A stretch of DNA of 64,000 nt from the NCBI GenBank assembly GCA_960531495.1, contig OY482865.1, positions 7,347,108 through 7,411,107 on the forward strand, given 5' to 3'. The notes below the pieces were generated by a model, which worked only from the letters and a program-made list of their open reading frames with translations, did no database searches and was not told the DNA's origin. The DNA comes from Zeus faber (Eukaryota; Chordata; Actinopteri; Zeiformes; Zeidae). Made by a program: the position numbers and the translations under genes. This document shows positions 22,958 to 63,836 of this stretch, piece after piece (within the stretch, counting starts at the first letter, position 1; each line of letters opens with the position of its first letter).

Positions 22958-23905
22958 AATGGACCAACCTACCTATGATAATGGGTTAGGGCAGGACACA
23001 CGGGATCAGTCTCTTGACCTTAAACTCTTTGAGTCGCAGTTCAGATTTTGTTCGGTTCACCGCCGGTGGTCTTGTAGATGTTCGGTTTGATTATGTTTTT
23101 TTTTTTTTTTTTTTTTTTTCCCCTCTGTCTCTGATTTTTCAAAAACCTCCCCTGCTCTGCGTCTTCCAGCTTCTCATGTGTCCGGCCAAAATAGCTGAAA
23201 ACACTTTCCGACGGATTGGGGAAAAATCCTTTTCCTCCCTACATCATTATCGGTGTCCGGCCCTTCCGTACCTCCTACCAAAGTGACTAGTTCCCGTCGA
23301 GCCTCTGACACCGGCTGCGGTCTTTATGGATTCAGGAAAGGTGCTGCTGTGCTAGTACCTTATAGGTTACAAAATATTGGTATAGCTTGGAGAGTAATGT
23401 CATATTTTTATTTCTGCATCTTTATTTTTCCTACGGTTTATGTGTGGTACTTGTCCAAAACCTTAAATTCTTACACTCTTAGATCTTGCAGTGTTATACA
23501 ATATTTAACTGTGTCGCACATTTACATATATTCAATACACGCTGCATTGTAAAAAAGCATGTTGTGATACGTGATATTCCAAATAAATAAACTTTAAAGA
23601 AACGAACTGAGCTACTTTCAGCAACGTAGCTGACAGGAACCCCTTGATTCAGTGGAATTCAGGGGTAATAAAACCACATCAAAAACACATCACAAATTCT
23701 TTAGTTATTGAGTTTTTTACTCTGCAGGTTATCTCGCTCATTACATTCCTGCCATGTCGTGGAATAACTTAACATATAAAAAGGCTGATTTGCCTCCTTT
23801 CCTCATCTTTGGAAAAATATCTGTTTCTTAAACGGATTATGATCTTATATTCTTGTGAAAGATAAGTACAACATTTATTGCACATTCCTGAGCTAATTCC
23901 CTGTT
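22958..23905. other. Intronic sequence before exon A
   Basis: T-run at 23096-23119. No gene recognised. Confidence 0.4.
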
Positions 23906-23951
23906 TGTGTGTGTGTGTGTGTGTGTGCGTGCCTGTGTGTGTGTGTGTGTG
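23906..23951 (+). repeat. (TG)n tract just upstream of the exon A acceptor
   Basis: Two TG runs (23906-23927 and 23934-23951), then GCGCGTCTGCGTGTGCGCACGTCCATAG to the acceptor. It takes the place of a normal polypyrimidine tract. Confidence 0.95.
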
Positions 23952-23978
23952 CGCGTCTGCGTGTGCGCACGTCCATAG

Positions 23979-24085
23979 AGGAGGAGGTGGAGAACTTTGA
24001 TGTGTCAAGTCTTCAGGAGGAGGCGCTGAGGAACATCGAGGCAGACAGCTTCTGGTGCATGAGTAAACTGCTAGATGGCATCCAG
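23979..24085 (+). CDS. tbc1d22a/b: TBC1 domain family member 22 (TBC1D22A/B), internal exon A
   Basis: TBC1D22 proteins are TBC-domain proteins, a family that acts on Rab GTPases as GAPs, and are reported around the Golgi. This 107-nt exon encodes EEVENFDVSSLQEEALRN followed by IEADSFWCMSKLLDGIQ, which I recognise as the TBC1D22 TBC domain shortly after the YxQ finger region. The acceptor is ATAG at 23975-23978, leaving 2 nt to complete a split codon (previous intron phase 1). An alternative acceptor AG at 23979-23980 would shorten the exon by 2 nt and break the phase. The donor is CAG|GTAAAC at 24085/24086, phase 0. Some residues look more like human 22A (DVSS, NIEAD) and others like 22B (ENFD, SFWC), so the paralogue is open. 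The preceding exon was not found in this window. Confidence 0.95.
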
Positions 24086-24087
24086 GT

Positions 24088-24090
<3 letters not shown>

Positions 24091-24121
<31 letters not shown>
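24091..24121 (+). repeat. (CA)n tract 5 nt after the exon A donor
   Basis: About 15 CA units starting right behind GTAAA. It is complementary to the TG tracts upstream of the same exon. Confidence 0.95.

Positions 24122-24756: not shown

Positions 24757-24827
<71 letters not shown>
24757..24827. repeat. (CA)n microsatellite
   Basis: About 35 pure CA units. Confidence 0.98.
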
Positions 24828-25327: not shown

Positions 25328-25442
<115 letters not shown>

Positions 25443-25813: not shown

Positions 25814-29942
<4,129 letters not shown>

Positions 29943-40203: not shown

Positions 40204-40365
40204 TGACTAAAGTCTGTCTGTCCGTCTGAGTTACCGGTTCTGGTGCTGTGGCTGCTGCTAACCTTATACCTAAACTTAACCCTCGCTTACTTGATGGCTA
40301 AAAATAAGCATCTCTAACCCTATACCGTAACCTAAACACCTCTAACCTCATACCTCAACTTAACC

Positions 40366-42130
40366 GTCTCTAACCTGAGGACTTCTCCGGTTCCGGTGAG
40401 AGCTACCACTTCCGGTTCCGGGGACTTCTTTGTGTGTGCATTGCTGTTGTCTTTTTTGCTGTTGTTTTTTGTTGCTCTGTTTCTGTTGTTGTTTTGTGGC
40501 TGCTGCTGCTCTTTCTGTTGCTGTTGTTGTAGTTTCTGTTGTGATATTACAGTGAGAGGATTATAAGAAGGGTGTGTTTTCGGAGAGATAGTCAAAAGGA
40601 TCTCCCTCCCGAGGTCAAAATGAAAAACTTGACCCGTAATTTAGGGAAGCTAATTAAAACACCGTGACTGGATTAAGATGAGACGGTGCACACAGTTGAA
40701 ATTTCCGTTTCTGGTGAGGGCTACCACTTCCGGTTCCGGTGACGTCTTCGCTTGTGCACTGTTGGCGCTACTATTGCTGCTGCCGTTTTCTGTTGCTGCT
40801 ATTGTTTCTGCTGGTATTGTCGTTGCTGCTGCTAACCTTATACCTGAACTTAACCATCTACCGTGACTGGATTTAGATGAGATGGTGCACACAGTTGAAA
40901 TCTCAGTGTCTGGTGAGGGCTGCCACTTCCTGTTCCGGTGGCGTCTTTGCTGTGCGTCGCTTCACTGAGAACTGTTGACTCAGTACAGATGATATTTTTT
41001 GTTCCGGTGAGAGCTACCACTTCCGGTTCCGGTGACGTCTTCGCTTGTGCACTGTTGCTGCTGCTGTTTTTACTGCTGCTATTGTTGCTGCTGGTACAGT
41101 AGCCGCTCGTGTTGTTATTGCTGCTGGTGGTGTTGTTGGTGCTGCTAACCTTATACCTTAACTGGTGTTGTCGTTGCCGCTGCTAACCTTATACCTAAAC
41201 TTAATCATCTCTGACCTTATTCCTTAACCTAATCATCTCGAACATTATACCTAAACAAAACAATCCCTAAACTTATACCTAAACTTAAACATCCCCAACC
41301 TTATACCCTAATTTAAATATCTCTAACTTTGTACCTCAACTCAACATCTCCAACCTGAGTGACTTTTCCGGTTCCGGTGAGAGCTACCACTTCTAGTTCC
41401 GGTGAGGTCTTTGCGTGTCCGTTGCTGTTGTTGCTCCTGCTTTGGTTTTGCTGTTGTTGCTGCTGGTGTTGATGTTGCTGCTATTTCTTTTGCTGTGGTG
41501 GTTTCTGTTGTGATATTACAGTTAGAGGGTCATAAGAAGGGTGTGTTTTCGTCTAGAGAGAGTCAAAAGGATCTCCCTCCCGAGGTTGAATTGAAAACTT
41601 GACCCGTAACTTTAAATTAAATTAAAGGACCGTGACTGGATTAAGATGAGACGGTGCACGCAGTTGAAATTTCCGTTTCCGGTGAGGGCTACCACGTCCG
41701 GTTCTGGTTACGTCTTTGCTGTGCTTTACGTCGTTGAGATGACATGGTACACACTGTTGACTCAGTACAGATGAGGAGATTTCTGATTCCGGTGAGAGCT
41801 ACGACTTCCGGTCCTGGTGACGTCTTCGCTTGTGCGTTGTTGCTGTTGTTGTTTTTGTTGGTGCTGTTGTCTGCTGCTGGTATAGTCACTGCTGGTGTTG
41901 TCATTGCTGCTGCTGCTGGTGCTGTTGTTGGTGCCGCTAACCTTATACCTTAACTGGTGTTGTCGTTGCTGCTGCTAACCTTATACCTCAACTTAACTCT
42001 CGCTTACCTTATACCTCAACTTAACGTAAACGTATACCTCGACATAACCATCTCTAACCTGAGTGACCGTTCCAGTTCCGGTGAGAGCTACCGCTTCCGG
42101 TTGCGGTGACGTCTTTGCGTGCGCGTTGCT
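40366..42130. repeat. Compound tandem repeat with GGTTCCGGTGA core inside the LINE
   Basis: Eight copies of a core close to TCCGGTGAGAGCTACCACTTCCGGTTCC GGTGACGTCTTCGC, starting near 40385, 40705, 40908, 41005, 41370, 41672, 41787 and 42073. Most are followed by a (CTG/TTG)n-rich stretch and then TAACCTTATACCT(A/C)AACTTAACCATCTCTAACC words. Larger blocks repeat too: TGATATTACAGT(G/T)AGAGG plus 80 bp at 40540 and 41508, and GTGACTGGATTAAGATGAGAC at 40664 and 41630, both about 967 bp apart. Confidence 0.85.
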
Positions 42131-42432
42131 GCTGTTGTTGTTGCTGCTGGTGTCGATGTTGCTGCTGCCGTTGTTGTTGTATATGTGGCTGTTGTTGCTG
42201 CTGTTGTTGTTTTCTGTTGCTGTTGTTGCCACTGTGGTTAGAGTCGCTTTTATTGTTGTTTTTGCTGTCTTTGTTGTTGCTTTTGTTGTTGCTGTTGTTT
42301 CAGGGGCATTCTTTTGTAATGACCGGCTGACAACTACGTTCTCTCTTTCTTTTTTGTATTTCTTTGTAAAGCGCATTGTGTTGCCCTGGTATGAAATGCG
42401 CTCTATAAATAAAGTGTGACTTGACTTGACTT

Positions 42433-45485: not shown

Positions 45486-45561
45486 GACAACTACACGTTC
45501 GCGCAGCCCGGAATCCAGAGAAAGGTCAAGGCACTGGAGGAGCTGGTCAGCAGGATCGACG
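45486..45561 (+). CDS. tbc1d22a/b: TBC1 domain family member 22 (TBC1D22A/B), internal exon B
   Basis: A 76-nt exon encoding DNYTFAQPGIQRKVKA and LEELVSRID, directly continuing exon A (…LLDGIQ). This is one of the most conserved stretches of TBC1D22 proteins. The acceptor TTCTTCTTTTAG at 45474-45485 has a good pyrimidine tract. The donor is GACG|GTAAGA at 45561/45562, phase 1, so the final G pairs with AG at the start of exon C to give Glu. RKVKALEE is closer to human TBC1D22B (KALEE) than 22A (KMLEE) as I remember them, but exon C has VHRH, which is 22A-like. The intron before it is about 21.4 kb and the one after about 18.1 kb. Confidence 0.95.

Positions 45562-46433: not shown

Positions 46434-46482
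<49 letters not shown>
46424..46482. repeat. (CA)n microsatellite
   Basis: CA run with one CG interruption. Confidence 0.97.

Positions 46483-63654: not shown

Positions 63655-63693
<39 letters not shown>
63655..63693 (+). repeat. (TG)n tract just upstream of the exon C acceptor
   Basis: About 19 TG units ending 14 nt before the acceptor AG. What remains between is TCCCTGCACTTAACAG. Confidence 0.96.
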
Positions 63694-63708: not shown

Positions 63709-63836
63709 AGTCGGTGCACCGCCACATGCAGCAGTACGAGGTGGAGTACCTGCAGTTCGCCTTCCGCTGGATGAACAACCTGCTGATGAGGGAGCTGCCG
63801 CTGCGCTGCACCATCAGACTGTGGGACACGTACCAG
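63709..63836 (+). CDS. tbc1d22a/b: TBC1 domain family member 22 (TBC1D22A/B), internal exon C
   Basis: A 128-nt exon beginning AG (completing Glu with the last G of exon B) and encoding SVHRHMQQYEVEYLQFAF, then RWMNNLLMRELPLRCT and IRLWDTYQ. FRWMNN...RLWDTY is the helix pair near the C-terminal end of the TBC domain and is nearly invariant in TBC1D22. The acceptor AG is at 63707-63708 and the donor CAG|GTAGCT at 63836/63837, phase 0. A (CTGT)n run begins 4 nt into the next intron. The following exon (expected to start SEPEGF-like) is beyond the window end. VHRH is 22A-like, YEVEYLQ 22B-like. Confidence 0.96.

Follow-up and report, generated by a model that had tools for sequence, protein, structure and literature searches.

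Exon A is a coding exon in the 64-kb stretch of Zeus faber DNA that we analyzed (the window), which is part of contig C21 of a searched genome of 803 Mb. The exon codes for 2 nt plus EEVENFDVSSLQEEALRNIEADSFWCMSKLLDGIQ, and its peptide, if E is taken for the split codon, matches human TBC1D22B (6d0s, E 1.2e-13) and TBC1D22A (2qfz, E 7.6e-10). When exons MXE1 to EPEG are joined, human TBC1D22A (2qfz, E 5e-115) is matched slightly better than TBC1D22B (6d0s, E 1.4e-112), and the joined exons contain the TBC domain PF00566 (2.1e-40). Because the joined exons match TBC1D22A best and carry this domain, the gene with exon A is, by its sequence, tbc1d22a, a fish Rab-GAP gene; a compact second gene on contig C15 is likely tbc1d22b. 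The exon preceding A, FERI, lies outside the window (C21:7336883), ∼34 kb upstream of A, and the introns between A and B and between B and C span 21.4 and 18.1 kb, respectively. Exon B has no TG or CA run of at least 12 nt within 150 nt. Two neighboring tbc1d22a exons, alternative-looking and 63 and 66 nt long, also lie outside the window (L030, C21:7328350, and L012, C21:7329594) and code IHIDIPRMSPESLVLQPKVTE and IHIDIPRTNPLIPLFQQASVQE. As both preserve the frame and look like the versions in human 22A and 22B, their use may be mutually exclusive. Both exons carry the IxxDxxR stretch of the TBC domain.

Complementary dinucleotide tracts flank exon A (Table 1). A first-pass annotation had described this 107-nt coding exon as bracketed by TG before and CA after, and the bracketing is real, with gaps of 27 and 4 nt. 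Its placement of the TG runs (23906-23951) is correct, but the CA run that it put at 24091-24121 is off by one and occupies 24090-24120. The TG tract (23902-23951) has 83% matches, with CGTGCC splitting two pure runs at 23906-23927 (22 nt, 11 UG repeats) and 23934-23951 (18 nt, 9 UG repeats) near the acceptor, while the CA tract is pure over its 31 nt. The exon has the acceptor CATAG and the donor GTAAAC. From the consensus, we take CTAAT to be a candidate branch point; the AG-free zone that begins there (23893-23976) contains the entire TG tract, and inspection of the sequence between CTAAT and the AG of exon A found no long pyrimidine stretch. AG-free zones with TG also precede the FERI, C, and MXE1 exons. 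At the donor, G is the usual base at position +5. The excerpted text of PMC8283771 agrees with this.

Table 1. Features at and around exon A, in coordinates of the window
Feature	Coordinates	Strand	Description
Exon A of tbc1d22a	23979..24085	+	107 nt; AG acceptor, GT donor; part of Rab-GAP TBC domain
Imperfect (TG) tract	23902..23951	+	3' end of intron upstream of exon A; ends 27 nt before exon A
Pure (AC)15.5 tract	24090..24120	+	5' end of intron downstream of exon A; starts 4 nt after exon A
Candidate branch point CTAAT	23893..23897	+	opens 84-nt AG-free zone; putative branch point
Exon A donor GTAAAC	24086..24091	+	no G at +5; CA tract begins at +5
Exon B of tbc1d22a	45486..45561	+	76 nt; ordinary pyrimidine tract
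Exon C of tbc1d22a	63709..63836	+	128 nt
(GT)19 tract	63656..63693	+	ends 15 nt before exon C
(CA)35 tract in A-B intron	24757..24826	+	duplex with TG arm -83.4 kcal/mol, vs -53.2 kcal/mol for adjacent CA tract
(CA)22 tract	46439..46482	+	first CA run in B-C intron, 878 nt in; duplex with TG arm -78.6 kcal/mol

How unusual the bracket is depends on what it is compared with. The window holds 50 pure TG/CA runs of at least 12 nt (25 TG, 25 CA). If a 107-nt block is placed at random, 1.06% of 63,400 positions put TG in the 30 nt before the block and 0.39% put CA in the 10 nt after it; multiplied, these fractions give 4e-5, and 8 of the 63,400 positions satisfy both conditions. Under random placement, the bracket of exon A is rare. 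The tracts in tbc1d22a, however, do not look randomly placed, as TG precedes 4 of 11 exons and CA follows 3 of 11. Independence at these frequencies predicts 1.1 bracketed exons (4 x 3 / 11) and 1 is seen, which means that the counts within tbc1d22a are unable to distinguish exon pairing from independence. The start of the A-B intron also carries very long pure TG and CA tracts (25330-25440, 27039-27153, and 24757-24826; 111, 115, and 70 nt), and positions 40305-42299 of the window consist of degenerate repeats with several unit lengths, 28 and 38 nt among them.

Among the exons sampled, each tract shows a preference for one side of the exon. Counting runs of at least 12 nt within 100 nt of the splice sites of the 11 tbc1d22a exons gives TG upstream of 4 (MXE1, FERI, A, and C) and CA upstream of none, with CA downstream of 3 (GYLP, MXE2, and A) and TG downstream of none. 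Nine tbc1d22b exon matches add one TG upstream, no CA upstream, no TG downstream, and one CA downstream; the ninth of them (L035) has no tracts, and the counterpart of exon A has neither a TG nor a CA tract. Within 150 nt of the match edges of 87 kinesin exons, we count 6 TG and 0 CA upstream, and 1 TG and 2 CA downstream; in one kinesin exon (L094), TG stands directly at the donor. Pooled over the 107 exons, in which tbc1d22b and kinesin edges are match edges rather than checked splice sites, TG is upstream 11 times and CA 0 times (binomial p 0.001), and CA is downstream 6 times and TG once (p 0.125). The kinesin sample comprises the 91 of 142 matches taken with flanks, the other 51 lying outside it, and over-represents strong matches with long exons. 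Four of the 91 (L054-L057) were dropped before counting, as they carry the whole domain in one frame and were taken as intronless; L057 had TG upstream. Myosin exons (PF00063, 166 matches) lie outside these counts.

Both kinesin exons with CA downstream also have TG upstream. Independence predicts 0.14 such exons among the 87 rather than 2 (Fisher p 0.004), a hint of some association at the level of the exon that runs contrary to a reading in which the tracts are independent; differences in repeat content between genes could also be the source of this excess. In tbc1d22b (C15; L003, L009), TG stands before the counterpart of exon C and CA after the IHIDIP exon, the same places as in tbc1d22a, and these common places reflect either retention since the gene duplication or coincidence.

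Motif patterns searched genome-wide served as proxies; they include non-splice sites, and their rows are not independent. On the acceptor side, TG...TTGCAGG is found 275 times and CA...TTGCAGG 164 times (binomial p 1e-7), and the control AACGTCC is preceded by TG 46 times and by CA 65 times. TTGCAGG is TG-rich and the control is its CA-rich complement, and tracts may prefer neighbors of like composition: with the control at face value the skew has an odds ratio of 2.37 (p 6e-5), which falls to 1.19 (p 0.45) when composition is matched, and we did not retain the genome-wide acceptor-side preference as support. A donor-side preference is not supported as a general rule, as CAGGTGAG is followed by AC at 87 forward-strand sites and by GT at 93 (controls, 29 and 34). 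The pattern of CAGGTAAG followed by (AC)8 (154 forward rows vs 30 in the control) was set aside because, in many of the matches listed, TACA stands a short distance downstream of CAGGTAAG, which gives them the look of a dispersed repeat that has a CA tail. For the bracket itself, TG...AGGTGAG...AC gives 164 rows vs 155 for a control motif (the complement of the reversed donor motif), and the reverse arrangement, AC...AGGTGAG...TG, gives 94 vs 64, numbers in which rows multi-count single places and composition may distort. Distinct places, judged by eye, number 14 for AC...AGGTGAG...TG and 15 among 100 listed rows of the 164 for TG...AGGTGAG...AC. With no clear excess over the control, a genome-wide class of TG...donor...CA brackets is not supported by these counts. 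At a spacing of ∼150 nt, rows for TG...CA pairs outnumber those for CA...TG pairs 1.7- to 2.4-fold, whether the donor or the control motif lies between (164/155 vs 94/64, multi-counted).

We lean, with some reserve, toward reading exon A as an ordinary coding exon whose intron ends were independently equipped, whose TG tract serves as the acceptor tract, and which is normally included. On this view, the dinucleotide tract at each of its splice sites would be the one that fish introns put up with, or make use of, at that end. The TG tract, lying between CTAAT and the next AG, would be a GU-rich, AG-free acceptor tract that replaces the pyrimidine tract, and the CA tract just inside the donor would, unlike TG, add no decoy GT. 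The bracket would then consist of two independently equipped intron ends that face each other across the exon by chance. Any pairing across the exon would be brief at most, one of many TG-CA pairings in the transcript, and most mRNAs would include exon A.

The first-pass annotation had instead proposed that the arms pair across the exon and loop it out. In silico, the complementary arms are indeed able to do so: the segment 23896-24130 is predicted to fold at -107.6 kcal/mol (z -4.0; none of 200 shuffles does as well), the bases of the CA tract pair with the TG tract at a mean probability of 0.94, and the adjacent duplex across the exon is worth -53.2 kcal/mol. The slightly longer segment 23880-24140 is predicted at -109.9 kcal/mol, a value that changes to -54.6 when the TG tract is left out and to -82.4 when the CA tract is. 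This predicted fold leaves the acceptor AG open and does not include CTAAT in the loop; the donor is partly closed, with unpaired probabilities of just 0.35 and 0.55 for G1 and U2. An exon-spanning hairpin would form during transcription, hide or separate the splice sites, and lower inclusion according to tract length, with the frame break leading to decay. We regard this as unlikely, though it is the strongest of the competing explanations. The CA tract is the first complement to be transcribed after the TG arm, 139 nt on, so the near pair would be advantaged by being transcribed first; the absence of a +5 G at the donor and the two bracketed kinesin exons, above independence, also fit. Skipping of exon A alone would break the frame, as had been pointed out (107 nt is not a multiple of 3), and would place a stop near the beginning of the EPEG exon, with one junction still to follow. 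A stop upstream of a further junction leads to mRNA decay, and decay would therefore be expected for mRNA without exon A.

The claim that this TG/CA pair is privileged is not supported. Better partners for both arms lie in the same introns: apart from the adjacent CA tract, the window contains 24 pure CA runs, 10 of which form a stronger duplex with the TG arm than that tract does (8 of them at -78 kcal/mol or better), and 13 of the 23 other TG runs reach -61.3 kcal/mol with the CA arm, vs -55.5 for the entire adjacent TG arm, so that by the measure set in this analysis the arms are not each other's best partners. Brackets show no clear genome-wide excess (164 vs 155 control rows, which composition may distort), and the tracts occupy the sides on which intron-end tracts occur in the sampled exons. 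The hairpin is further opposed by the paralogue tbc1d22b, which has neither tract at the counterpart exon, and by the cellular proteins that bind UG tracts; TDP-43 bound (UG)6 but not (CA)6 in vitro (PMC3985631, excerpted text). Looping of exon A is possible in the folding model but unproven, and is neither privileged nor favored.

A doubtful account as well, in our judgment, is that the tracts are neutral microsatellites, slippage products without function in a TG/CA-rich genome from which only combinations harmful to splicing are removed. The density of pure runs (50 in 64 kb) and the interruption of the TG tract are in line with neutrality, as is the finding that the two introns next to A each lack a tract at one end; the genome-wide proxies also show no donor side preference and no acceptor preference independent of composition. 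The side preference over 107 exons (TG upstream 11 times vs CA 0 times) is difficult to reconcile with it, as is the absence of any long run of pyrimidines from the putative branch site to the AG of exon A. Together, these two observations suggest that the TG tract at least matters.

Circularization of exon A had also been suggested. A circle of this single exon is unlikely given its length, as 107 nt is short and single-exon circRNAs arise from unusually long exons (PMC6376117, PMC4479058, excerpted texts). Exons A and B together make 183 nt, and joint skipping keeps the frame. It is conceivable, but in our estimate very improbable, that the TG arm pairs with the CA tract beyond B (46439-46482) to yield an A+B circle and an in-frame mRNA that lacks both exons. 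The human circRNA hsa_circ_0001252 from TBC1D22A (chr22:47370185-47393605, assumed to be hg19) has 186 nt over 23.4 kb (PMC8810173, excerpted text). Human TBC1D22A has one extra residue at the start of exon A (vs 2qfz), so that, with conserved splice sites, a length of 110 nt is predicted for human exon A, and 110 + 76 = 186. A+B is the sole run of adjacent exons that sums to 186 among eight putative exon places, a set in which the lengths from MXE1 to EPEG were checked against 2qfz, those of KLLS and GYLP come from fish, the human lengths are estimates, and the earlier coding exons fall outside. On these estimated lengths, the match points to A+B as the human circle, and existing data would allow this lead to be followed at little cost. 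A pig TBC1D22A circRNA that spans 16.7 kb (PMC9729231, excerpted text) and the 21.4-kb length of the fish A-B intron are also consistent with such a circle, and circTBC1D22A is mentioned in other papers, without exon detail in the excerpts available. The CA arm beside A, however, would be unneeded and would compete, and many other CA tracts lie between. About as improbable is a switch in which near CA pairing of the TG arm removes A and disrupts the frame, pairing beyond B frees an in-frame A+B circle like the human one of 186 nt, and tract length sets the balance of linear and circular products.

Our preferred reading, of independently equipped intron ends, can be set against several known systems. 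Fish introns with AC at the 5' end and GT at the 3' end were reportedly described by Lin et al. 2016 (Genome Res 26:12). In fish AC...GT introns, tracts at opposite ends pair across the intron, and RNA structure replaces U2AF2 in splicing (PMC7404189, PMC9198270, PMC6883713, excerpted texts). Around exon A, the same complementary tracts stand at intron ends, with AC at the 5' end of an intron and GT at the 3' end; in the fish AC...GT introns, however, both tracts belong to one intron, whereas here they belong to two and face each other across the exon. The intron after A has the AC tract near its 5' end (CA at +5) and no 3' GT tract; it ends TTGGTTTGTTCTTCTTTTAG, a plain pyrimidine tract, and the start of the closest TG run lies 1,630 nt upstream of exon B. 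In the intron before A, the initial 1.5 kb contain no CA run, and the run encountered first is TG, 700 nt in. As neither has tracts at both ends, we rejected these introns as strict members of the class; the tbc1d22a introns GYLP-MXE1 and MXE2-FERI have AC at one end and GT at the other, although the TG tract of MXE1 stops well short of its acceptor. If TG tracts do take the place of pyrimidine tracts at acceptors in fish, changes in the length of common microsatellites would bear directly on the splicing of housekeeping genes.

The TG tract of CFTR intron 8, upstream of exon 9 and followed by a T run, is said to be bound by TDP-43. CFTR intron 8 and exon A share more than six UG repeats just upstream of the acceptor. 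The UG-repeat threshold for TDP-43 is 6 (PMC3985631, excerpted text), and the acceptor of exon A has at least that many in each run (11 and 9). Unlike CFTR exon 9, exon A has no T run after the TG tract and has a CA tract at the donor. Intronic CA repeats are bound by hnRNP L, and the intron after exon A likewise has such a tract immediately within its donor end. Exons looped by inverted repeats, for example, Alu pairs, undergo skipping or give rise to circRNAs (PMC9198270, PMC4479058, excerpted texts). Exon A resembles them in having complementary arms in its flanking introns and differs in that it is short and in that its arms consist of simple repeats, for which dozens of other partners exist. 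A literature search, with most subscription papers outside its reach, found no study of TG/CA tracts that face each other across an exon. The layout of exon A is real and consists of parts whose kind is known; the locus offers a clean test of tracts facing across an exon vs across an intron.
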